Virus record (IMG/VR): IMGVR_UViG_3300040801_004389
Span: 1-34,155 of that record
Strand: one strand, 5' to 3'
From: a virus
DNA: 34,155 bases
Shown one piece after another: positions 2,382 through 18,874 of this stretch. Each line of letters begins with the position of its first letter. Position 1 is the stretch's first letter. A program made the position numbers and the translations under genes. The notes beneath the pieces were generated by a model that saw only the letters and a list, made by a program, of their open reading frames with translations, had not been told where the DNA came from and did not search any database.

Positions 2382-2514
2382 GTTCCGCACCCCCCCGGTA
2401 GGTGCGGAACTTTGGAGCGACGAAAAAACAGGGTGCGGAACTTGGCATTTTACACAGTGGAAACGGCGGGTTGGCTCCATGAGCGTTTGGTTGAGCGTTG
2501 AAGAGGTGCGGAAC
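2382..2514. repeat. GGTGCGGAAC repeat cluster in the transposase leader
   Basis: GGTGCGGAAC occurs in direct orientation at 2401-2410, 2432-2441 and 2505-2514 (the last inside the transposase gene) and inverted at 2382-2391. The inverted copy and the first direct copy form a perfect 10-bp stem with a nine-base loop. The first two direct copies are 31 bp apart. The cluster fills the 158-bp gap before the transposase; it could be an operator, an attenuator hairpin, or an internal transposase or enhancer site. Confidence 0.6.
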
Positions 2515-4413
2515 CTGGAAAACCTCGGTGAACGTGCCGTTCGGAAGCGCATTTCGGAAGGCAAGTACACCTCGGTTCGCCAAGTGGAAAGCGAACGCGG
2601 CGGGGGAAAACAGGGGAAGGTTTGGCAGGTTCACATAAGCTGTCTGACCCCCGAAGCCCAAACGGCCTACTGGCGGGAAATGTCGGGCGGGGACCGGGAT
2701 CCGGTTCGGACGCTGGAAGAGTGGGTGAAGAAAAATCGCCTTCGGCTGACGCCCAAGGAATTGGCCGATCCGGGGGTTCAGGCCCGGCTTTCCGTTTACA
2801 AGGCGCTTCACGCCATCCCCAAATATAAAGGACGGTCCAAGGTGGCCCAGGAACTTGCGGCGCAACACAACGTATCCGTCCCGACGATTTGGCGATGGTT
2901 GCGGGACGCCCGGAAATGGCGGGTGGAACACAGGACGCCCACGGTGGAAGTGTGCGGGACGCCCGTCAACCTTCCCCGCCTGAACAAGTTCGACGAACCG
3001 GCCGTTCGGTACGGACTTTCCGTCTACTTTTCCAACCGCCATGCCGGGATTAAGGCCGCATACAAGGCGTTGGAGCGGGAGGCGCGGGAAAAGGGCTGGA
3101 AAATCGGCCACTACTCCAACTTTACCCGGCTGATCAAACGAATCCCGGAACAAATCGAATGTTTGGCCACGAAAGGTGACGTGGGCTTTGAACTGGAATA
3201 CGGCCCCAAAATCCGCCGGGACTGGCTGTCCATCCCCCCGTTCTCCGTACTCTGCGGGGACCAAAAGGTTTGCGATTACATCGTTTTCGACGAAGCGACC
3301 GGGGAAACCTACGCCATGAACTACTACCTGTGGATGGACTGTTCAACCCGGTATTGGGCGGGGCTTTGGCCCAGCTTCGGCCCCTACAACAAGTACACGG
3401 TGAACATGGCCCTTCGGGAAGCCTGCCGGGTGGCCATGCCGGAAGAGATTTACACCGACTGGGGCAAGCCGGAACTCTCCAAGTATTCCCGCGAACTGGA
3501 AAAGAAGTTGGGCGGCTGTTCCGTGCGCCTGGGGGACTGGGGGCAATTTCGGAATCATTACGAATCCCTTACCCGCCATCAAGCCCAGGCAGGAAAGCCC
3601 TGGCACAAGCCCATCGAAAACCACATGAACATGTTCGAGCGATACCTGAAAGACATGTTTTTGGAGGGCTATCGCCACCGGGACGGGGACGCCTGGGTCA
3701 ATAAACAGCGGAACATGGATTTGAAGCGGGCGCGGGAGGCGGGGACGCTTCTATCCGTTCAGGAATTCATGGAAATTTGCTTGGCCATCCTGCGGGAACA
3801 CAACGGCAACCGGATGAACGTGCAGGAGCGGGAAGGCGGGATCATTCCGGCGGAAGCGCTACGGCTGGGGCTGGAGGACGCGGGCCGGGTGCCCTACCAC
3901 GAAGACACGTTGGATTTCCTGTTTCTCCCGTCGTTCCAACGGAAAATCCGGCAAAGCTCCGTTGCGGTGAAGATGGGCGCCAACGACAAGCGCCATTTCT
4001 ACATCCCGCCCCAGGAATCCGCCAACCTCGGCGGCGATCCCGTCCAGGTGCTGGTGGACCCGTTCGACCCGGACCGGGAAGCCATCATCCTGACCGTTTC
4101 CGGCGAATTCGTCTGTCATGCCGAGCGGGATCAAATGGTTACGCCCGGCGACATGACCGCAGTTCAGGAGCGGCTGAAACGGCAACGGGAGTACATGAAG
4201 TTCTGGAAGGACGCTTTCCGGGACTTGGTGGATACCCAGGTGGGACGAAGCGCCCGGAAAGTATCCGCCATCGGACCGGCGTCCCGGGCGGCGCGGACGG
4301 CCCAGGCCCAAGAGCAACAGCGGAAAGCGGAGGTGGTTCCGTTGCGCGGAAGCAAGAGTAAAGCGGACGATTTTTTGGACAGGTATTACGAACAAAACCT
4401 TGTGAACGAATGA
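2479..4413 (+). CDS. A: MuA-type DDE transposase
   Basis: 644 residues, close to MuA (663). It cuts phage ends and joins them to target DNA, for integration and replication by transposition. The N-terminus (1-55) is a Mu-type winged helix for site-specific DNA binding ('VRKRISEGKYTSVRQVE'); a second HTH lies at about 118-145 ('VAQELAAQHNVSVPTIWRWL'). The catalytic triad is D261 ('CGDQKVCDY'), D327 ('IYTDWGKPE') and E380 ('KPIENHMNMFERYLK'); spacings of 66 and 53 residues are close to MuA's. A beta-barrel-like region and a basic C-terminal tail, where MuA contacts MuB, follow. The ATPase gene comes next. It is intact with no missing catalytic residue. Confidence 0.95.
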   Translation: MSVWLSVEEVRNLENLGERAVRKRISEGKYTSVRQVESERGGGKQGKVWQVHISCLTPEAQTAYWREMSGGDRDPVRTLEEWVKKNRLRLTPKELADPGVQARLSVYKALHAIPKYKGRSKVAQELAAQHNVSVPTIWRWLRDARKWRVEHRTPTVEVCGTPVNLPRLNKFDEPAVRYGLSVYFSNRHAGIKAAYKALEREAREKGWKIGHYSNFTRLIKRIPEQIECLATKGDVGFELEYGPKIRRDWLSIPPFSVLCGDQKVCDYIVFDEATGETYAMNYYLWMDCSTRYWAGLWPSFGPYNKYTVNMALREACRVAMPEEIYTDWGKPELSKYSRELEKKLGGCSVRLGDWGQFRNHYESLTRHQAQAGKPWHKPIENHMNMFERYLKDMFLEGYRHRDGDAWVNKQRNMDLKRAREAGTLLSVQEFMEICLAILREHNGNRMNVQEREGGIIPAEALRLGLEDAGRVPYHEDTLDFLFLPSFQRKIRQSSVAVKMGANDKRHFYIPPQESANLGGDPVQVLVDPFDPDREAIILTVSGEFVCHAERDQMVTPGDMTAVQERLKRQREYMKFWKDAFRDLVDTQVGRSARKVSAIGPASRAARTAQAQEQQRKAEVVPLRGSKSKADDFLDRYYEQNLVNE

Positions 4414-4484: not shown

Positions 4485-5354
4485 ATGACCCAGAACATTC
4501 AAGCGGATTTCAAGCGGAGCGGGCTGTCATTGGCGGAAGTCGTGGACCACTGCGCGGTTTCCAAGTCTACCGCGTCTCAAGTGATTTCCGGGAAATACGG
4601 CGGGAGCGCGGAAACGGTGGAACGGGTGCATGACTTTATCCGGGCGAACCTGCCGGCGGCACCGGCCCCGGATTCCTTCCAGCCGACACCGGGACAGCGG
4701 CGGGCAATGTCGCTGCTGGATTTGCTTCGGAAAAAACGGAAGTTCGGCCTGGTGGTGGGCGCTTCGGGGATCGGGAAAACCCGGATGCTTTCCGAGTATC
4801 GGCGGAAATGGCCGGAAGTGGAGGTCTACCGGGTGCGGCAGGGGCAATCCATGGGCGGTTTGCTGTCCGGACTGTGCCGGTTGTGGGGCCTTCCCCATAC
4901 CGGTTCGAACGACACGAAGCTGGACCGGCTGATCGAGGCCGCCCCGGGCCGGTTCCTGGCCGTGGACGAAGCGGACAACATTTCCCGCGCCCGCCATGGC
5001 CACCAAGTTCTCCGGATGATCGAGGTTTTCCGGTATTTGTATGACGCGGGGGCCGGGGTGGTGCTGGTGGGGTTGCCGTCCATCTATACGGACATTTGCC
5101 AAGCGGGAGAAACCTATGTGTTTTCCCGGATTCGGTACTTGAACACGCTAACCCCGCCGGATCGGGCGCTGTTGACGGCGTACTGGGAATCCCTTTTCGG
5201 CAACGCCAACGGGGCCACAGAGGGAATCATCGGGAACGCGGTTCGGGCCGGGTATTTCCGATACCTGAACGAGTTGGCGGACGCGGCCCGGGAATTTGGC
5301 GACCTGGAAGCGGCGCAGGCGATGGCGTTTAACCCTAATTTGAAGGTGGCGTAG
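4485..5354 (+). CDS. B: MuB-type transposition target-capture ATPase
   Basis: 289 residues (MuB is 312). MuB-type proteins coat target DNA as ATP-bound filaments, recruit the transposome and provide target immunity. An N-terminal XRE-like HTH spans about 10-40 ('LAEVVDHCAVSKSTASQVI'), as in MuB. The AAA core has Walker A at 92-99 (GASGIGKT) and Walker B at 157-162 (FLAVDE). A helical C-terminal part follows. GAAAGGAG precedes the ATG. Directly downstream of the transposase, as in other transposable phages. Confidence 0.92.
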   Translation: MTQNIQADFKRSGLSLAEVVDHCAVSKSTASQVISGKYGGSAETVERVHDFIRANLPAAPAPDSFQPTPGQRRAMSLLDLLRKKRKFGLVVGASGIGKTRMLSEYRRKWPEVEVYRVRQGQSMGGLLSGLCRLWGLPHTGSNDTKLDRLIEAAPGRFLAVDEADNISRARHGHQVLRMIEVFRYLYDAGAGVVLVGLPSIYTDICQAGETYVFSRIRYLNTLTPPDRALLTAYWESLFGNANGATEGIIGNAVRAGYFRYLNELADAAREFGDLEAAQAMAFNPNLKVA

Positions 5355-8984: not shown

Positions 8985-9437
8985 ATGGCAGGCAAACCCA
9001 AAAGCTACCGGGCCGATATGATCAAGCGGATTCATACCGGCTGGAAATGGAAAGAAATCTACAAGGATGACCGGGCCTTGTACGAAGAATTTTTGCTGGG
9101 GCGGTACGGGAAGGAAAGCTTTCCCGGCGGGAAGGTATCTTCCACCGCCCTGAACAACGCCCAACTGCGGGATTTGGCCGATTTTATGCGGGGCGTGGAA
9201 CGAAAGGCCCCGCCGGGCCCCAACGCGGCGACGGCCCGGAAACCCCAAAAAATCTCGGATGGCCAGTGGCGCCACATTCGGTGGCTGCAACGGCAATTGT
9301 GTTGGGATGATAGTAACCTACGGTCATACGTTCAAAAGGTGGCCAAGGTGGATCACGAACGGTTTCTTACCGTTCGCCTGGCCAAGGACGTGATTACCGG
9401 GATGCGGTCCACGTTGAATTATCGGAGCTACCGGTAA
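8985..9437 (+). CDS. gemA: GemA/gp16-like regulatory protein
   Basis: 150 residues; GAAAGGAAG precedes ATG 8985. The C-terminal half carries the gp16/DUF1018 signature: 'ISDGQWRHIRWLQRQLCWDD', 'LRSYVQKVAKV', and a final helix with 'LAKDVITGMR'. In Mu, GemA (gp16) affects host gene expression and DNA topology; its molecular activity is poorly known. The N-terminal part ('WKEIYKDDRALYEEFLLGRYG') extends the usual family. It sits at the early/late boundary as in Mu and overlaps the terminase start by one base. Confidence 0.75.
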   Translation: MAGKPKSYRADMIKRIHTGWKWKEIYKDDRALYEEFLLGRYGKESFPGGKVSSTALNNAQLRDLADFMRGVERKAPPGPNAATARKPQKISDGQWRHIRWLQRQLCWDDSNLRSYVQKVAKVDHERFLTVRLAKDVITGMRSTLNYRSYR

Positions 9438-11029
9438 TGGGGAAACCGTATCCGCCGGAGGTCCGCAAACAGGCCCGGAAGCGGTTTGTGGTGGACGGCC
9501 TTTCCTGCCGGGAGATCGCCAAAGAAATGGGCATTTCCCCGCCCACAATTTGGAAATGGTACCGGGAAGGCAGTTGGGCGGAAGAACGGGATTTCCAGGG
9601 CGATTCCCGCGCCCAAATCAACCGGCAGTTGGAACGCCTGGCCGCCGGGAACATCACCGAGAGCAAGGCCCGGAAAATCGCTATGCTTTCAAAGGCCCTG
9701 GCGCGGATCGACCGGGCGGAAAACGCCAAGGCCAAGCGGGACGCGGCCAAGCCCAAGAGCGTGGCCAAGGTGCTGGGCGACATCGCCGACCGGTTGGCCA
9801 AATACGAATCGGAACATTTTCGGCCCTACCAGCGTGAATTCACGAAAGACGATTCCCGGTTCCGGTGCATTTTGAAAGCCCGCCAAGTGGGGATGTCCTG
9901 GTTGATGGCCTACGAAATGTTGAAAGGCGCGTTGACCCGGGACGTGGATCAAAACTTGGTTTCCACAAGCCTCTACCAGACGGAAAATACCATCCGTTAC
10001 GCCCGCGAACACATGGCCGCCCTCGGGATTGCGGAACAGGGCAAGGGCGGGAAACAGGAAATCGCCCTGCCCAACGGCCGGATTCTGCGGACCCTTCCGG
10101 CCAATCAGGCGACCTCGCAGGGGTGGCCCGGGGATGTCGTGTTTGACGAAATGGCTTGGTACCGCCGGGGAAAGGACGTGTGGGAAGCCATCGCCCCCAG
10201 CGTCACGGCGGTGCAAGGGCGCATCACCGTGCTTTCCACTCCCTACGAAGCGGGGCCCCACAATTGGTTTTGGACGATCCAGACCAACGACGGCGGACAA
10301 TTCCCGCTTTTCTCCCGGCATACCATCGACATCGACCGGGCGCTACGGGAGGGGCTGGAAATCGACGTGGAGGAGCTTCGCGGGCTTTTCGACGCCGACA
10401 CCTGGGACCGGCTGTACCGGTGCCGGTATTTCACGGATGAAGACAGCTTTTTTACGTTGGCCGAACTCAACGCCTGCCGGGGGGAATGCCTGGAAAAGTG
10501 GATGGGTACCGACCGGCGGGCCGGCTGGGACATGGCCAAAACGCGGGACGCCTCCGAATTGGTGGGCGTGGAAGTGTTGCACGATCAGGTTTTTACGCGG
10601 GGCGTGGAAACGTGGCGGCGGGTCAACTATCGGGACCAGCGGGACCGGGTGGTGGGGGCGCTGAAACGATGGCGGGCGCACTCCATCCATGTGGACGCCA
10701 CCGGCGTTGGCGTGGCCGTTCGGGATTTTGTTTCCCCGGAAATCCCCGCCCACATTGGCCAGCACTGGCACACGTTTGACCAAGCGTTCAAGGCCAACAT
10801 TGCCCAAAACCTGAAAAAGCTGGTGGAAGAGGCGCGGATTGTGATCCCCCACGACGACCGGGTCTTGATCAGCCAGTTTTTGAACATCAAGCGGCAGGCC
10901 AAGGACAAGGGAATATCCTACGACATTGGCCGGAACGCCAGCGGCCACGGGGACCGGTTTTGGGCGTTGGCGCTGGCCTGCCATGGGATTGAATTCGGGA
11001 ATGGAGTGATCGACGTGGAGGTCTGGTAA
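9437..11029 (+). CDS. Terminase: small-subunit-like HTH fused to large ATPase/nuclease subunit
   Basis: 530 residues. Residues 1-50 are an HTH of the small-terminase/DUF1804 kind ('YPPEVRKQARKRFVVDG', 'SCREIAKEMGISPPTIWKWY'), followed by a charged linker (60-125). The large subunit then has a deviant Walker A at about 147-154 (KARQVGMS), Walker B at 234-238 (VVFDE), and the 'VLSTPY' coupling motif at 265-270. An RNase H-type nuclease has acidic residues near D365 ('AGWDMAKTRDASEL'), D419 ('HVDATGVGVAVRDF') and D506 ('GHGDRFWALALA'). It packages DNA by headful, so host DNA beyond the phage end is expected in particles. No separate small subunit gene is seen next to it. The start overlaps the gemA stop, and the HTH is in frame without a gap, so the fusion is a single open frame. 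Confidence 0.88.
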   Translation: MGKPYPPEVRKQARKRFVVDGLSCREIAKEMGISPPTIWKWYREGSWAEERDFQGDSRAQINRQLERLAAGNITESKARKIAMLSKALARIDRAENAKAKRDAAKPKSVAKVLGDIADRLAKYESEHFRPYQREFTKDDSRFRCILKARQVGMSWLMAYEMLKGALTRDVDQNLVSTSLYQTENTIRYAREHMAALGIAEQGKGGKQEIALPNGRILRTLPANQATSQGWPGDVVFDEMAWYRRGKDVWEAIAPSVTAVQGRITVLSTPYEAGPHNWFWTIQTNDGGQFPLFSRHTIDIDRALREGLEIDVEELRGLFDADTWDRLYRCRYFTDEDSFFTLAELNACRGECLEKWMGTDRRAGWDMAKTRDASELVGVEVLHDQVFTRGVETWRRVNYRDQRDRVVGALKRWRAHSIHVDATGVGVAVRDFVSPEIPAHIGQHWHTFDQAFKANIAQNLKKLVEEARIVIPHDDRVLISQFLNIKRQAKDKGISYDIGRNASGHGDRFWALALACHGIEFGNGVIDVEVW

Positions 11030-11259
11030 TGCTTTGCCCCGGATGCGGAAAAGCGCCGTTGGCCGTAAAAAATACACAACGGTATGAACAGGCAATCCGA
11101 AGGACGCGATTTTGCACCCAATGTGGCCGCCACTGGGAAACGATTGAGGAAGTGACGGCGGAAATCATCACGAGGACACACTATGACTTCGGAAATCGCA
11201 TTGGCGCTCCGGAAAAGGGCGCTCAGAAAATCCTTGCTTCAAAAAAGCGATGCGGCTGA
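11029..11259 (+). CDS. NrdR-like zinc-ribbon protein
   Basis: 76 residues; ATG 11029 overlaps the terminase stop (TAATG). Two pairs, 'CPGC' and 'CTQC', about 24 residues apart with basic residues between ('YEQAIRRTRFC') and a following aromatic 'RHWETIEEV' look like the zinc ribbon at the front of NrdR, without its ATP-cone. It could be a transcription or translation adaptor. The last 26 codons overlap the next gene in another frame for 77 bases, an unusually long overlap here, so its true end or expression deserves checking. Confidence 0.6.
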   Translation: MLCPGCGKAPLAVKNTQRYEQAIRRTRFCTQCGRHWETIEEVTAEIITRTHYDFGNRIGAPEKGAQKILASKKRCG

Positions 11260-12094
11260 CGAATTGTTTCTGAAACTCCAAAACGCCTACACGCGGGCCT
11301 GGGACCGGCAGGCGAAAGAGGCCATCGCGGCGGCGCTGGACCGGCTTCGGACCCTCGGGTCCGGGACGTTCATGGCGAAAGACGCGGACATGATCGAGCG
11401 CGTGTTGGAAGATCGGATTGGGCCGGAGGCGATGAAGGCGGCCCTGACCGGCCCGGTGATGGCCATCACGGAACCGCTGTGGATGTTGGGCGCGATGGAA
11501 GGGGCCGGGATGGACGTGCAATTCGGCCTGGCCGATCTGGATTCCTTGGCGGTGCTGGAACGGGGGAATTTGTTCTGGACGGGCCAGCACTGGAACAGCT
11601 TCACCCACGAAAAATTCCAGACGATTTTGAAGGAATACTTCGAAAGCGGGCTGACCCGGGAAGCTCTGGCCGCCCGCATGGCGGAAGATTTCGGGCATTT
11701 GCGGAAACGTGGCGCCCACTACTGGAATTTGCTGGCGGATCATACCGCCACGAAAACTCGAGAAATTGGGAGAGTGACCGGCTACGAGCGGGCGCGAATC
11801 GAGGAAGTGGTGGTCCGGGCGCGGCTGGACGCCCGGACAACGAGGATTTGCCGGTCGCTCCATGGGAAGGTGATTTCCGTGCGGGTGTTGCGGGAGCAGA
11901 CGGACCGGTACCTCAAGGCCGTGGCGGAAATGAACCCCGGGGAGGCAAAGAAGGTTTGGCCCATGATGGGCGACAAGGAAGCGGAAAAAATCGAGTCGGG
12001 CGCGGTCCCGTCCAACATCGGAAGCCCGCCCTACCATTTCCGGTGCCGGACAATCACCGTGACCCGGTTTCGGGATACGGAGGTGGCGGAATGA
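11183..12094 (+). CDS. Mu F-like minor head (morphogenesis) protein
   Basis: 303 residues; GAGGA lies just before ATG 11183. The C-terminal half has the Mu F signature: 'LDARTTRICRSLHGKVI' (D216, C223) and the ending 'PPYHFRCRT' with H285 and C288, the typical YHxxCRT close. The N-terminal 200 residues are helical. Mu F proteins sit with the portal in the procapsid and some are ejected. It follows the terminase and would normally adjoin the portal, but here the portal is about 4 kb away on the other strand. Confidence 0.85.
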   Translation: MTSEIALALRKRALRKSLLQKSDAADELFLKLQNAYTRAWDRQAKEAIAAALDRLRTLGSGTFMAKDADMIERVLEDRIGPEAMKAALTGPVMAITEPLWMLGAMEGAGMDVQFGLADLDSLAVLERGNLFWTGQHWNSFTHEKFQTILKEYFESGLTREALAARMAEDFGHLRKRGAHYWNLLADHTATKTREIGRVTGYERARIEEVVVRARLDARTTRICRSLHGKVISVRVLREQTDRYLKAVAEMNPGEAKKVWPMMGDKEAEKIESGAVPSNIGSPPYHFRCRTITVTRFRDTEVAE

Positions 12095-13140
12095 CCGTGA
12101 TGCCCAAGACGGCCCCCCACGGCGGGAAGCACTACCGGAAGCCCAAGGCGAAAAAGCGGACCTACACCCACGACCAACTCAAATCTATGTGGGCGTGGCC
12201 GCTGGAGAAGAAGGAGGCGTGGTCCCGTGCCGTGATCCGGAAGGCGCTGGCGACAATCGAAAACCCAAGCGTGGCTTTTTCCGCCGGGAAAGACAGTACC
12301 GTGACTCTCCATCTTGTTCGGGAGATGAAGCCGGATGTTAACGTGATTTACGGGAACACAAGGATCGAGTTTCCCGAATGCGTGAAGTTTGCCCACCGGC
12401 TTCGGGACGAATGGGCCTTGAACTTCCACGAAGCGCTCCCCGAGGTGTCGTTCTGGTGGGTGGTCAAGAATTACGGATGGCCTTTGCTGGGGAAGAATCA
12501 GGGCGTTGGCGGGGTGGCCCACAAATCCAGCCGGGAAAAGTTTTTCAAGCGGCTGATTGAGGAAAACGGAGAGTTGCCCAAAAAATACCGGCTTCAAGCG
12601 GCGGTGCCGATTTCTTCCGCCTGTTGCACGTTTTTGAAAGAGCGGCCTTCCATCAAGATTCAAAAGCGCTTGGGCGTGGATGGGGTTTTTCTGGGGATCA
12701 TGGCCAGCGAAAGCCGCCGGCGGATGTTCAACTTTCTGGAACATGGGGAATTCTACTACCCCAAAACGCAGAAGGTTTGGAAGGTTCACCCACTGGCCAT
12801 CTGGACCGATGACGACGTGTGGGCCTATCATCGGAAACACAATGTGCCCTACGCCGCGTTATACGATATGGGCTATACCAACGAATACGGCCGGTTTGTG
12901 TCGCACAAGCGCAACGGCTGTATGTGGTGCGGGATGGACATCAAGTACCCGGACAACCATCTGTCCATCATGCGCCATACTCATCCGAAAGCATGGCGAA
13001 CGGCCATGATTAAGATGGGTTTGGGTGAAGTGTTCTTGGAAATCCATCGGGCCTTGGACCGCCAGCACGATTTGTTCGCGTCCCAGATTCCCGTGGAGGA
13101 ATATCTTGAACAGTTTCCTTGTGCGTTTGATCGAATTTAA
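12091..13140 (+). CDS. PAPS-reductase-family PP-loop protein
   Basis: 349 residues; ATG 12091 overlaps the Mu F stop by four bases; a much longer upstream frame overlaps that gene and is rejected. The PP-loop 'SAGKDSTVTLHL' (S64-T70) binds ATP and makes the family's adenylyl-transfer chemistry likely. Conserved cysteines C178-C179 and C277/C280 ('NGCMWCGM') could hold an Fe-S cluster. The tail 'MRHTHPKAWRTAMIKMGLGE' matches the phage branch of the family rather than assimilatory CysH. Relatives are DndC-like (sulphur in DNA) and phage proteins of unknown role. Possible functions are nucleic-acid modification or sulphur transfer; no other dnd/ssp genes are present. First gene of an accessory cassette. 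Confidence 0.82.
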   Translation: MTVMPKTAPHGGKHYRKPKAKKRTYTHDQLKSMWAWPLEKKEAWSRAVIRKALATIENPSVAFSAGKDSTVTLHLVREMKPDVNVIYGNTRIEFPECVKFAHRLRDEWALNFHEALPEVSFWWVVKNYGWPLLGKNQGVGGVAHKSSREKFFKRLIEENGELPKKYRLQAAVPISSACCTFLKERPSIKIQKRLGVDGVFLGIMASESRRRMFNFLEHGEFYYPKTQKVWKVHPLAIWTDDDVWAYHRKHNVPYAALYDMGYTNEYGRFVSHKRNGCMWCGMDIKYPDNHLSIMRHTHPKAWRTAMIKMGLGEVFLEIHRALDRQHDLFASQIPVEEYLEQFPCAFDRI

Positions 13141-13151
13141 AGGAGGTGAAC

Positions 13152-13406
13152 GTGAAAGATGTTGAGTTCATAGAGGAAATTATTGGGAAGATCAATGACG
13201 GAGACCGGGACTACGCTTTGGAAATGCTCGGAGATTGGAAACGGGAATTGCAGGAGAAGCCAGACAGGGAAGATATTGATGACGTTCTGCGCTACCTCCG
13301 CGTCACAAACCGGCTTCGCAACGACCGGGACGCCTATCGCCATGCGCTTGTTTGCTACGCCTTGGGCGAAGAGGATAAACCCGACCCGGCGGATTATGGG
13401 CAATGA
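13152..13406 (+). CDS. Small acidic helical protein
   Basis: 84 residues from GTG 13152; AGGAGGTG (13141-13148) is a near-perfect ribosome site for it, while the in-frame GTG at 13146 lies inside that site. All-helical and acidic, with 'YALEMLGDWKRELQ' and 'DVLRYLRVTNRLRNDRDAYR'. No family recognised. In the accessory cassette behind the PAPS-reductase-like gene, its strong ribosome site suggests high expression. Confidence 0.6.
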   Translation: MKDVEFIEEIIGKINDGDRDYALEMLGDWKRELQEKPDREDIDDVLRYLRVTNRLRNDRDAYRHALVCYALGEEDKPDPADYGQ

Positions 13407-13597
13407 TTAAAGCCCCCTACCGCTGCTTGGCCTGCGGAATTGTGGAAGCGTTGCCGCCGGTGATCGGCGGGCGCAAATGCCCGGAACCGGAATGCGGCGG
13501 GCCGATGATTCGGGAAAACACGGATGACGAACAGGAACCGGCTTGGGACGAACCGTGGTTCGGGCCGGAGATCGCGCCGAAGGAGTGGAAACGATGA
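13403..13597 (+). CDS. Small zinc-ribbon protein
   Basis: 64 residues; ATG 13403 overlaps the previous stop by four bases. 'CLAC' and 'CPEPEC' about 17 residues apart form a short zinc ribbon. The rest is acidic with 'EPAWDEPWFGPEI'. It is probably a small nucleic-acid- or protein-binding adaptor. Function unknown. Confidence 0.6.
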   Translation: MIKAPYRCLACGIVEALPPVIGGRKCPEPECGGPMIRENTDDEQEPAWDEPWFGPEIAPKEWKR

Positions 13598-14627: not shown

Positions 14628-14659
14628 AACCGGCCGCCGGGGAAACCCGGCGGCCGGTT
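14628..14659. terminator. Terminator between convergent gene blocks
   Basis: A perfect 14-bp stem (14,628-14,641 with 14,646-14,659) with a GAAA tetraloop. On the minus strand it is followed by GTTTTTTTTGC (A-run at 14,619-14,626), a strong intrinsic terminator for the leftward portal block. On the plus strand only TTTGGTTT-like bases follow, giving a weaker terminator for the accessory cassette. Confidence 0.85.
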
Positions 14660-14675: not shown

Positions 14676-15104
14676 TTAGGCCGCTTCGGGATACTCCTCC
14701 TCCGGCTCTTCCGGTTCCGCTTCGCAACAATCCGCTTCATCTTCCTCGCAAAAGCACTCTTCCGAAGGCGTGATCAACTGCCACGTCACCGCCTCCCCCT
14801 CAAAATTCTGCATGGGAATGTATCGGTGCCGTCCCATTCGCCGATCCGGATACCGCAAAACAATTCGCTTCCAGTTGGCCGAACTGATCAGCGCCCGGGC
14901 CGATCCCACCGGCGTGGGATGGAAAATCCACATTCCTTCGTCAAACGGCGACGTTTTGAACACCCGATACCCCAGCATTGCCCGAACGGTGTTCCAGAAC
15001 ACGGTGGCCAGCGCGAACGCAAGGGCCATGGTCAGCAGCTGGACCATGGCGAAGACGGTCAGCCCCTCCGCCATGATCCCCTGAAAAACTTCCATTCCCT
15101 GCAT
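14676..15104 (-). CDS. Membrane protein with Cys/Glu-rich tail
   Basis: 142 residues. A hydrophobic helix at about 12-40 ('AEGLTVFAMVQLLTMALAFA') is followed by a soluble domain with strands ('YRVFKTSPFDEGMWIFHPTP', 'SANWKRIVLRYPDRRMGR') and an acidic tail with several cysteines ('EECFCEEDEADCCE'). GAAAGGG precedes the ATG on this strand; a second Met four residues later is an alternative start. Third gene of the leftward block. The function is unknown; the membrane helix makes a head role unlikely and a lysis or exclusion role possible. Confidence 0.6.
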   Translation of the reverse strand: MQGMEVFQGIMAEGLTVFAMVQLLTMALAFALATVFWNTVRAMLGYRVFKTSPFDEGMWIFHPTPVGSARALISSANWKRIVLRYPDRRMGRHRYIPMQNFEGEAVTWQLITPSEECFCEEDEADCCEAEPEEPEEEYPEAA

Positions 15105-15168
15105 ACGATTTTCCCTTTCTGTTTATGGCCCGAAGGCCGGTTCCAGTTGTAAAGGATTACCTTACAAC

Positions 15169-15615
15169 TCACTTCCGCAAGCTTCGCCGAATCCCTTTCA
15201 GCACGTCTTCTATTTGCTCTTCCAGCATTTCCCGCCGTAGCTCTTCCCGAAGCCATGGGTAGCCGTCCCGTTGCATTTCCTTGATAGCATTCGCGAGGAA
15301 CGGCTTACCCTTTCGGGCCGGTTGGCGCACTTCCTTGGCGTAGACCGTTTTCCCGCCGATGGAGAATTTCAGCCTGGCCTTTTTGGCGTCCCGTGGGTTT
15401 TTGGAAAGATTGGGCCGGATGACGATGGCCGGCCGCCCGTCGTGGACGGCGCGGGCATACGGCAGGTTGGACCCGACGGCCGCCTTCCCGTTGCCCATGA
15501 AATGGACCACCACGGATTTTCGCAAGTCGCCGGTCAAAAACGGAATGTTTTCCTGCCGGGTGGCGATTTCCCGGACCCGTTCGGCCAAGAGTAAAACCAG
15601 TCGGTCCACGTCCAT
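15169..15615 (-). CDS. HK97 gp10-like neck/tail-completion protein
   Basis: 148 residues starting at ATG 15615; the frame is open to 15675 but that part is the hairpin, and GAAAGGA lies upstream of the chosen start. It carries the family pattern 'LPYARAVHDGRPAIVI', 'KARLKFSIGGKTVYAKEV' and 'PARKGKPFLANAIKEM', as in HK97 gp10-like proteins that join head and tail. The C-terminus is a charged helix. It lies downstream of the portal gene in the same leftward unit. Confidence 0.75.
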   Translation of the reverse strand: MDVDRLVLLLAERVREIATRQENIPFLTGDLRKSVVVHFMGNGKAAVGSNLPYARAVHDGRPAIVIRPNLSKNPRDAKKARLKFSIGGKTVYAKEVRQPARKGKPFLANAIKEMQRDGYPWLREELRREMLEEQIEDVLKGIRRSLRK

Positions 15616-15645
15616 CTTAACGAAAATCCTTTCGTCAACATCCTG

Positions 15646-15677
15646 GGTTGGTCGGGAAGCAAACTTCCCGACCAACC
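15646..15677. promoter_or_regulatory. Perfect 14-bp hairpin between portal and neck genes
   Basis: GGTTGGTCGGGAAG (15,646-15,659) pairs perfectly with 15,664-15,677 around CAAA. Neither strand has a T-tract after the stem, although AAAAA (plus 15,679-15,683) precedes it on the leftward transcript as TTTTT. It could be an mRNA-processing or stability element, or a symmetrical protein-binding site. Confidence 0.6.
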
Positions 15678-15693
15678 GAAAAACCGTTGGAAA

Positions 15694-16881
15694 TTAAGCG
15701 TCTTTCCACAACATCGCCACAAGATCGGCCGTCTTCATCACGTCCTCGCCATCCCCTTCCGCCTCCGGTTCTTTCGGCTTTTCCGGAACGGCGGGCGCGA
15801 TGGGTTCCGCCGGGGGCGGCGCTGGGGCTTCCGGCTTTTCCGGCTCCAAATCCAGCGGGGCGAATTCCAGCGTTTCCAGGCCCATTTCTCCGGTCGTGAT
15901 TTCCCATTGTTCCGCCATCCGGCGGCGTTTGGGGCGGAGCGATGTCACTTCGAAAACTTTCAGTTGTTCCGCCACTTCGCCCCCGCCCCCCAACTGCCCC
16001 GCCGTCATGATCCCCAGCATACGCGGCGGGACGCCGTGGGCCGTGATGATTCGTTCCCGGGCGGCGTCCAACAGCTTCAAAAAATCCGCTTCCTTCCGAT
16101 CTTCCGTCAACTTTTTGAATTCCACTTCGGAACCGGCCCCGGCGGGAATGTACAGCGCCCGATGCGCGTTTTCCGCTCCGGCGAATTCGCCCCGGAAAAA
16201 GTCCTGAACTTTGGCCTTGGCCGCCTCGCTCAACATCCCCTGCTTTGTGATGATGGCATAATCCGGGATGGCCCGGTTTCGGAAAAAGGCGGCGTTGTAG
16301 GCCGTGGCGGCGGCCGTCAACTCGATCATGCCCTGGCCGCCGATCCATTGGGGAAGCGCATAGTGGAAGCCGCCGGAACAGGGGACGCGCAAATGGAGGA
16401 TTTCATCGGGCCGAAAAAAAATCTCTTTCAGGTGGCCGTCCACTTCGTAAATCCATTGGACGAACCCGGCCTTGTCCTTCAACACCATCATCGTTCTGGC
16501 GGGAAGCGCCTTCAAACCGACAACCCGCTTCCCCGCCCGGACAATCTCCGCGAACGCGTTTCCGTAGATCTCCAGGTCCAGGCCCAGGCGGACAAAGAAC
16601 GACGCCGGGCCGGTGCCGTCGGGAAGGAACGATTTCAATTCATCCGCCGGGGAAACGCCGTTGCCGAAGGCGCATTCCGCCTTGATTTGGCAACAGCGCT
16701 GGTGGTCGCCGCTGGCGGTGTACAGCAGATAAAGCGCGTTCGGGTCCACGGGCCATCCGATGGCCCGCCCGTCCAATGTGGATTCGATTGGCGGCATTGG
16801 GGCGATGTCGCCCGCTCCCAGGCTTTTGCAGATGGGCGCCGCCCCCTTGGCCGAAACGGTGATGATGTCGAAATTTTCCAT
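15694..16881 (-). CDS. Portal protein, PBSX/P2 type, on the strand opposite the other structural genes
   Basis: 395 residues from ATG 16881; GGGGGAA lies upstream, while the longer frame to 17,877 runs antisense to the protease and is rejected. Portal hallmarks are 'ASFFVRLGLDLEIYGNAFAE' (about 93-112), 'FRPDEILHLRVPCSGGFHYA' (about 156-175) and 'DRKEADFLKLLDAARERI' leading into 'HGVPPRMLGI' (about 261-291), which is typical of the PBSX/P2 gpQ family. The C-terminus is a Pro/Glu/Ala-rich tail ending in a short helix. The portal is the DNA channel at the capsid vertex and is essential, so its reversed orientation is remarkable. Terminase, Mu F-like, protease and capsid genes are all rightward. 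Confidence 0.85.
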   Translation of the reverse strand: MENFDIITVSAKGAAPICKSLGAGDIAPMPPIESTLDGRAIGWPVDPNALYLLYTASGDHQRCCQIKAECAFGNGVSPADELKSFLPDGTGPASFFVRLGLDLEIYGNAFAEIVRAGKRVVGLKALPARTMMVLKDKAGFVQWIYEVDGHLKEIFFRPDEILHLRVPCSGGFHYALPQWIGGQGMIELTAAATAYNAAFFRNRAIPDYAIITKQGMLSEAAKAKVQDFFRGEFAGAENAHRALYIPAGAGSEVEFKKLTEDRKEADFLKLLDAARERIITAHGVPPRMLGIMTAGQLGGGGEVAEQLKVFEVTSLRPKRRRMAEQWEITTGEMGLETLEFAPLDLEPEKPEAPAPPPAEPIAPAVPEKPKEPEAEGDGEDVMKTADLVAMLWKDA

Positions 16882-17025
16882 GGGGATAGAATTCCCCCTT
16901 TTTTCCGCTTTCGGAAACAGAAAAATGGTTAGCTTCGTACATACTGATCTTATTGACTTTTTTTGCCTTGCAACGGGAAGCGTTCCGGCGGAACGTAGGG
17001 GAAAAAAACAGCGGAGCGGGGAGCG
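16882..17025. promoter_or_regulatory. Divergent intergenic region with a 15-bp palindrome
   Basis: This 144-bp gap lies between the leftward portal and the rightward protease and must contain signals for both. A perfect palindrome with a one-base centre, CGTTCCG-g-CGGAACG, is at 16,981-16,995, an operator-like site upstream of the protease. TTGACT (16,953-16,958) resembles a rightward -35 box, but no good -10 follows at normal spacing, as in activator-dependent Mu late promoters. TTTCCG/CGGAAA (16,902-16,917) forms a small hairpin in the portal leader. Confidence 0.5.
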
Positions 17026-17871
17026 ATGGCCTACCAACTGAAAGAATTGAGCGTGGAATTTATCAGCCTTGTGAAGTCGCCGGCCAACCGGAAGGGGCTG
17101 GTGTTGAAGGGGCGGGACGCCCGGACGTTCGAAATCAAGAAAACGGACGCCAAGCTGAAACGGGCCTATGGCGTTGTGTATGCCCCGGACGAAGAGGACG
17201 CCCAAGGCGACAGCGCGGACGCCGAAACGATCCGGAAGGCCGCCGATGAATTCATGAAGGACGGCCGGCTGAAAAACGTGGATTCCGACCATGACTTTGT
17301 TCCCAAGGGGGCCTTCGTGGCGGAATCTTGGATTGTGCGCAAAGGCGATCCCACGTTTTCCGGCGAATCCGAAGGGGCCTGGGCCGTGGGAATCCAAATC
17401 ACGGATGACGCCCTGTGGAAGGGGCTGGAGTCCGGGGAATACACGGGGATTTCCCTGGCCGGCAACGGCCGCCGGGTGAAGAAAGAAGACGACGAGCCGC
17501 CGGGGTGGTTCCGGCGGTTTTTGGCCAAAGCGGGCCGCAAGGCCGATGACGGCGAAACCGGGGAGGACGTGGAAAAGATGGAGGATGAAATGAAGGAACA
17601 GTTCGACGAGATCAAGGCCGCCATCGCGGAATTGAAGGCCGCCTTGGCGAAACGGCCGGAAGGCGAGGAAGAGCCCGAAGAAGAGGGCGTCCAAAAGTCC
17701 GGCGAAACCGTGGCGGCCCTGGCCAAGCAGGTGGAAGAACTCAAGGCCGAAGTTTCCAAGGCCCGAACCGACGCCGCCGACGAAATGAAAAAGCTGTTGG
17801 CGGAAGCGCTGGCCAAGGGGCGGGGCGAAACCGCCGGGCCGGGACAGTCCGTCGAAAGCGAAATGGTCTAA
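17026..17871 (+). CDS. XkdF-type capsid maturation protease fused to a scaffold-like tail
   Basis: 281 residues. Residues 1-150 match the XkdF/S78_2 pattern: 'RAYGVVYAPDEEDAQGDSAD', a conserved 'DSDHDF' (H89), 'VAESWIVRKGDPTF', 'GAWAVGIQITDDALWKGL' and 'YTGISLAG' (S143). H89 and S143 are the likely catalytic pair. The rest (about 180-265) is acidic coiled coil, as expected of a scaffold that directs capsid assembly and is then removed. It precedes the major capsid gene. A GGGGAGCG ribosome site precedes the ATG. Confidence 0.82.
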   Translation: MAYQLKELSVEFISLVKSPANRKGLVLKGRDARTFEIKKTDAKLKRAYGVVYAPDEEDAQGDSADAETIRKAADEFMKDGRLKNVDSDHDFVPKGAFVAESWIVRKGDPTFSGESEGAWAVGIQITDDALWKGLESGEYTGISLAGNGRRVKKEDDEPPGWFRRFLAKAGRKADDGETGEDVEKMEDEMKEQFDEIKAAIAELKAALAKRPEGEEEPEEEGVQKSGETVAALAKQVEELKAEVSKARTDAADEMKKLLAEALAKGRGETAGPGQSVESEMV

Positions 17872-17902: not shown

Positions 17903-18874
17903 ATGAGTTTCTGGGCTCACTTGGCCATGGCCATCCAGAAAGGCGACGCGGCGGCGCTGGAAGCGCTGGGGAAGATGGACGATCTTTCCAAGGCCGTTAC
18001 CGCAACGGGAATCGGAATCGGCGGGGCGGTGACCCCGGCGGCGGCCCGGCAGTACTTTACCACCGTCACCGACGCTTCCAGTTTTCTGGGGCGCGTTTCC
18101 TCCACCCAGGTGGACGCCCTGGAACAGGACGTGGACCTGTTCCACATTGCGCCCCGTTCCATCACCCGGGTTGCGGAAGGCACCGAACCGGGAACCACCG
18201 TGGGCGCGTCCAACCTCGGGAAGCGGTGGGCGTTGAAAGACGTTCAGCTTTTCCCCACCGTCAACTTTTCCGCCATCGTCAACCGGCAGAAGCAGGGGAA
18301 CATCGAAACCTATCTGGCGAATCTTTTCGCCACCGTGTTCCGCAACGACTTGCTGTTGCTGGGGCTGGAGGGCGATGAAGCGCTGACCGGCGACGATTTC
18401 AAGAAGCTGAACGATGGATGGGTGGCGCTGGCCCAGGACGCCGTGGCCACCACCGACCGGGACATGGACAACGTCCTGGATACCACGGTGCTCGATCATA
18501 TGGCCACGATGGACGCCATGATTCAGGAAATGGATGACAAGTACCTGATCGAAGGCCAAACCTGCTTCTTGATGTCCCGGAAGAACGCCATTTCGTGGGG
18601 CAAGGAAATGGGGGACCACCAGGGGCTGAATCCCTATCTGATCACGGGGCAGGTTCCGCAGTACCAGGGTTTTGAAGTGATCGGGATTCCCGGAATGCCC
18701 GCCGATACGTTCATGCTGACCAATCCGGCGAATCTTGCCTTTGGCATGGGCCATCAAATCCAGCGTTTCCGCGAGGTTCGCCCCCGGAAACGGTGCGTGG
18801 AATATACCTGGACGCTGTACGCGGATTATCTCATCGTGAACGACGAAGCTGTGGTCTATTCCGATCCGGCCTAA
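17903..18874 (+). CDS. Major capsid protein
   Basis: 323 residues, GAAAGGAGA upstream. It carries the pattern 'AVTPAAARQYFTTVTDASSF' then 'LGRVSSTQVDALEQDVDLFH', similar to the start of P2/PBSX capsid proteins (HK97 fold), a central 'MIQEMDDKYLIEGQTCFLM' helix-strand part and a C-terminal 'EYTWTLYADYLIVNDEAVVY' strand. The N-terminal 30-35 residues may be a cleaved or scaffold-contacting arm. Direct position after the protease/scaffold supports the call. The strong ribosome site fits high expression. Confidence 0.82.
   Translation: MSFWAHLAMAIQKGDAAALEALGKMDDLSKAVTATGIGIGGAVTPAAARQYFTTVTDASSFLGRVSSTQVDALEQDVDLFHIAPRSITRVAEGTEPGTTVGASNLGKRWALKDVQLFPTVNFSAIVNRQKQGNIETYLANLFATVFRNDLLLLGLEGDEALTGDDFKKLNDGWVALAQDAVATTDRDMDNVLDTTVLDHMATMDAMIQEMDDKYLIEGQTCFLMSRKNAISWGKEMGDHQGLNPYLITGQVPQYQGFEVIGIPGMPADTFMLTNPANLAFGMGHQIQRFREVRPRKRCVEYTWTLYADYLIVNDEAVVYSDPA

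Follow-up and report, generated by a model that had tools for sequence, protein, structure and literature searches.

The portal gene and its neighbours in the stretch of viral DNA analyzed here (34,155 nucleotides, one IMG/VR virus record, hereafter the window) are read against the other head genes. This leftward unit is very probably an inherited P2-type vertex operon for portal and neck, lying back to back with the protease/capsid operon of a Mu-type phage with a siphophage-like tail. Judged from its genes, the window is a Mu-type transposable phage of bacteria with a P2-type head; the record carries no host flanks. It is the terminase and not the portal that is out of place, and TerL alone departs from the conserved layout. 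The apparent anomaly is a family trait: the reversed portal operon persists in highly diverged phages, both transposable and non-transposable, and this persistence suggests selection for keeping the divergent head promoter region. The reversed operon as such was already known from P2-type phages; what the displaced terminase adds is a modest new variant.

The features of the window are collected in Table 1. The portal protein matched PF04860 with 109 bits (cut-off 39, E 2.8e-31) and the portal family phrog_12 with an E-value of 3.8e-38. The G+C content of its three codon positions (0.64/0.45/0.76) follows the same pattern as in the rightward genes, so the strand call is correct, and the composition by codon position backs a leftward reading for all three genes. 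The gp10/Neck1-like ORF (15,169–15,675, minus strand) matched phrog_5 (E 5.7e-09), and its product is 49–61% identical to the counterparts in the two closest relatives, the viral contigs L153 and L155. The 142-residue membrane protein has a coding-like composition (0.60/0.43/0.71); it had no relative in the comparison with the phrog and Pfam databases and was not found in any of the related viruses. The profile matches and the codon composition thus uphold what an earlier note on this sequence had described, namely a leftward unit of portal, gp10-like gene, and membrane protein between rightward terminase/MuF and rightward protease/capsid genes.

On the capsid side, the protease matched the XkdF-type family PF14550 (E 7.8e-30), and a rightward tail module with a 1754-residue tape measure lies 3′ of the capsid gene. 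Two points here speak against the P2-type reading: the capsid protein scored 25.1 bits against PF05125, the P2 capsid family, just below the cut-off of 27, and the protease is not of the P2 gpO type, with no match to a gpO protease/scaffold family in Pfam. On the other side, the MuF-like protein scored 21 bits against PF04233, below the cut-off of 29.6, and its identity is backed by phrog_115/241 and by its relatives. The window TerL was matched to P2-like TerL by tblastn across 96% of its length and carries Terminase_6N/6C domains; by these matches, the portal and the terminase are members of the P2 gpQ and gpP families. The rightward genes before the leftward unit also include a MazG-like gene and, between MuF and that unit, a PAPS-reductase-like gene (12,091–13,140). 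A PAPS reductase is likewise annotated in Microcystis phage Mae-JY29, whose portal is of the P2 type.

Table 1 Features of the window, in order of position.
Feature	Position	Strand	Remarks
MuA transposase	2479–4413	+	phrog_310, E 1.2e-59
MuB transposition protein	4485–5354	+	phrog_296, E 5.8e-31
GemA	8985–9437	+	PF06252, 33.2 bits (cut-off 27)
P2 gpP-type large terminase (TerL)	9437–11,029	+	N-terminal HTH; between GemA and MuF
MuF-like minor head protein	11,183–12,094	+	phrog_115/241, relatives
Intrinsic terminator closing the leftward unit	14,628–14,659	−	14-bp perfect stem, 4-nt loop, then GTTTTTTTTG
142-aa one-helix membrane protein	14,676–15,104	−	Last gene of the leftward unit; hydrophobic stretch, acidic C-tail
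HK97 gp10/Neck1 (tail completion)-like connector	15,169–15,615	−	ORF opens at 15,675, ATG likely at 15,615
Hairpin at the portal/gp10 junction	15,646–15,677	−	Perfect 14-bp stem without T-run; z −5.1
P2 gpQ-type portal protein	15,694–16,881	−	PF04860, phrog_12
Divergent intergenic region	16,882–17,025		144 bp, between portal and protease
XkdF-type (S78_2) protease	17,026–17,871	+	C-terminal part scaffold-like
P2-like major capsid protein (MCP)	17,903–18,874	+	phrog_1623, strong match

The leftward unit ends in a strong terminator of its own, as had been claimed: the closing hairpin came top of the terminator scan (z −6.0), with its T-run on the minus strand, and perfect stems in simulated sequence never exceeded 10 bp, against 14 bp here. 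An 18-bp hairpin occupies the equivalent place in L153 (5505–5545). The second hairpin, at the portal/gp10 junction, may have a processing or stabilising role for the leftward transcript. In some relatives, terL occupies this junction, which raised the idea that the hairpin marks where terL was lost; neither L153 nor L155 has the hairpin, so it is not a clade-wide scar.

A separate leftward promoter in the 16,882–17,025 gap, which the earlier note had called for, follows by necessity from the divergent layout, and the gap very likely contains the rightward head promoter as well. The gap is A+T-rich (G+C 0.49 vs 0.60, among the lowest 4% of windows). The promoter scan of this region returned no sigma-70-like site, and a Pfam scan of ten small ORFs gave no homologue of Ogr, Mor, or C; both results count against the P2-type reading as far as late co-activation is concerned. 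Mor and C are also missing in Leptospira transposable prophages (PMC8705779). A search for a shared regulatory dyad gave TCCA-N4-TGGA, picked post hoc, which is seen in the portal/protease gaps of L138, L140, L142, and L145 and partly in that of L155 but not in the window gap. The shorter CCA-N4-TGG, likewise chosen post hoc, occurs in 7 of the 42 divergent gaps vs 4% in controls, and dyads of this type are possible candidates for a late-regulator site. L155 also carries, between portal and protease (15,210–15,253), a palindrome with 20-bp arms and A-/T-run flanks, which resembles a bidirectional terminator or an insulator between putative divergent promoters.

From P2 and from the anatomy of the region, we infer that both head operons would fire late from this common gap. 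The leftward unit would yield the portal, in 12 copies, and the neck protein, in low copy number, and stop at the 14,628–14,659 hairpin, and the rightward unit would yield protease/scaffold, capsid, and tail. The P2-type terminase gene ordinarily belongs to the leftward operon; in the small clade of the window, it is found in the rightward stretch before MuF. It is unlikely that the unit is separate so that portal and capsid can be dosed independently. Such dosing would suit a dodecamer at one vertex, as formed by the P2 gpQ portal (PMC7552001), beside a capsid protein present in hundreds of copies, and a divergent operon would permit promoters of differing strength. However, the sequence shows no regulatory difference. 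Furthermore, the P2 late promoters respond to one activator, Ogr, so divergence in P2 would mean coordination, not independence.

Single-protein searches with the portal, capsid, terminase, and transposase against viral contigs, and with the portal against genome contigs, found no close relatives. Relatives were gathered by alignment-guided searches: an alignment of the window terminase with that of a Campylobacter fetus phage-plasmid led to 61 viral contigs, on which iterated profile searches were run, with the window subtracted from the counts, and a second terminase alignment led to L153 and L155. Terminase similarity was the criterion for this collection, and many of the relatives are redundant (near-identical contigs are included, and the non-redundant divergent gaps number 42), so the following counts are not independent. 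Portal and protease lie on opposite strands in all 51 relatives that have both genes, as do portal and MCP in 45 of 45, and outside the window clade, 56 of 56 relatives have terL next to the portal and read in the same direction. The direction of the portal relative to protease and MCP is uniform in all the relatives, down to about 30% identity. Most of them have MuF and many have MuA, MuB, and GemA, which makes the reversed-portal layout that of one widespread family, Mu-type transposable with a P2-type head.

The C. fetus phage-plasmid NZ_CP014569 illustrates this layout, as do viral contigs such as L098, L101, L104, and L106. As in the window, portal and gp10 oppose an XkdF protease, an MCP of the P2 family (so annotated for the C. 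fetus capsid homologue), and a long tape measure, and MuF lies past the leftward unit on the capsid strand. Unlike in the window, the leftward unit also includes terL, placed between portal and gp10, and portal identity is about 31%. In L094, L120, L135, and L150, the portal is read as DUF935-like, and terminase, portal, and MuF-like gene are divergent from the protease/capsid side. The MuA-MuB-GemA(-MuF) block goes with the portal/terminase strand, against the capsid genes, in L095, L151, and L145 and the opposite way in other relatives; among L091–L152, the gp10-like gene is on the portal strand in about half and on the opposite strand in the remainder.

L153 and L155 come from two metagenomes and share 61% and 59% portal identity, respectively, with the window. 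Their gene order (terL> MuF> gp10< portal< protease> MCP>) is the same as in the window across both borders. As the window is a lone virus record, the arrangement could in principle be the product of misassembly of a single contig; these two independent contigs, sharing order and strands over both borders, practically rule this out. They exclude a recent inversion as well. The earlier note had seen a weak inverted similarity between the borders and thought a past inversion possible, and a segment from portal to membrane protein that had recently inverted, or could invert, would account for the strands. Yet 10.7% of simulated border pairs match that similarity over the whole border regions (p about 0.11), which is chance level, no long inverted repeat joins the two borders, and no recombinase gene was seen adjoining the leftward unit. 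L153 and L155 contradict an inversion, as does the element from C. fetus, and every relative, to about 30% identity, has the portal in the window direction. An inverted or invertible segment is thus extremely improbable. In L155, the MuF-like ORF (11,622–13,580) encodes 652 residues, about twice the 303 of the window, suggesting a C-terminal fusion.

The terminase shows a different picture. In the window, L153, and L155, terL is rightward and before MuF, and the adjacency of terminase and portal in one operon is absent from the window. We give an even chance to the view that this small clade lost TerL from the reversed portal operon and now uses a strongly diverged TerL encoded before MuF. If true, the genes for motor and portal, whose products must dock, lie on opposite strands and probably belong to different transcription units. 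The displaced terminase offers a natural experiment for asking whether co-transcription of portal and motor is obligatory or the two can be exchanged between lineages.

The portal tree groups the window with L153 and L155 (98/96), as sister to L128, L132, L136, L140, L142, and L145, whereas the terminase trees place the window clade as a separate deep lineage. Between this clade and its portal sisters, the terL distance is about twice that predicted from the portal distance, which favours replacement by a foreign terminase: we lean towards a rightward terL acquired from an unsampled lineage in place of the original leftward one (xenologous displacement). The ratio of terL to portal distance has a median of 1.63 (1.50–3.01) for the window clade vs its sister clade, against medians of 0.77–0.98 in comparisons without the window clade. 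The portals of L132 and L134 are 52–53% identical to that of the window and their terLs only 33–34%, and a terL tree in which the window clade joins L128/L132/L149 alone was rejected (p 7e-9). On the other hand, the tests did not reject a sister placement to the whole portal-sister clade (p 0.24 and 0.31), which is where the portal tree puts the window; for comparisons with the remote part of the family, the ratio is ordinary (1.05); and no donor lineage was found. As that sister placement was not rejected, the phage's own terL may instead have left the leftward operon and afterwards changed more quickly, a tenable account but a somewhat less than probable one. The P2-type N-terminal HTH architecture retained in the window TerL is in its favour; against it, the surplus divergence falls on the stem, and terL evolves no faster than the portal within the window clade (ratio 1.08, three pairs). 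Descent from the collinear Mu-order group was rejected, as those terLs form their own clade, although the place of the window terL, after GemA and before MuF, is the Mu order.

The earlier note took it that tailed phages nearly always have these genes in a single direction, which leaves out the large P2-type group with its divergent portal operon. In Microcystis phage Mae-JY29, as in the Peduoviridae records, the terminase and portal genes (P, Q) are divergent from the adjoining capsid-side genes (O/N). A portal operon that diverges from the protease/capsid operon is the P2-type standard, an old inherited layout with nothing abnormal about it. The window shares with P2 and the Peduoviridae the portal and terminase families, a portal operon opposed to protease/scaffold and capsid, and additional variable genes after the portal in the leftward operon. 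It differs in its XkdF-type protease, its MuA/MuB, and its siphophage-like tail, and P (terL) opens the leftward operon in P2, while the window terL is rightward and distant. In the P2-family Pseudoalteromonas phages ACA1/ACA2, large terminase and portal form the sole multigene leftward operon, followed by two other genes as in P2 (PMC10612066). There the two genes after the portal are holins, and the window unit likewise ends in a small membrane protein; a difference is that terL is still inside the operon in those phages. With phage Mu and the Mu-order transposable phages (e.g., L159, L164, L190), the window has in common MuA, MuB, and GemA and a terL between GemA and MuF. In those phages, however, a DUF935-type portal adjoins terL and all the genes are collinear, and the terL-portal-MuF-protease-MCP order of Mu is absent from the window, where the portal is leftward and P2-type.
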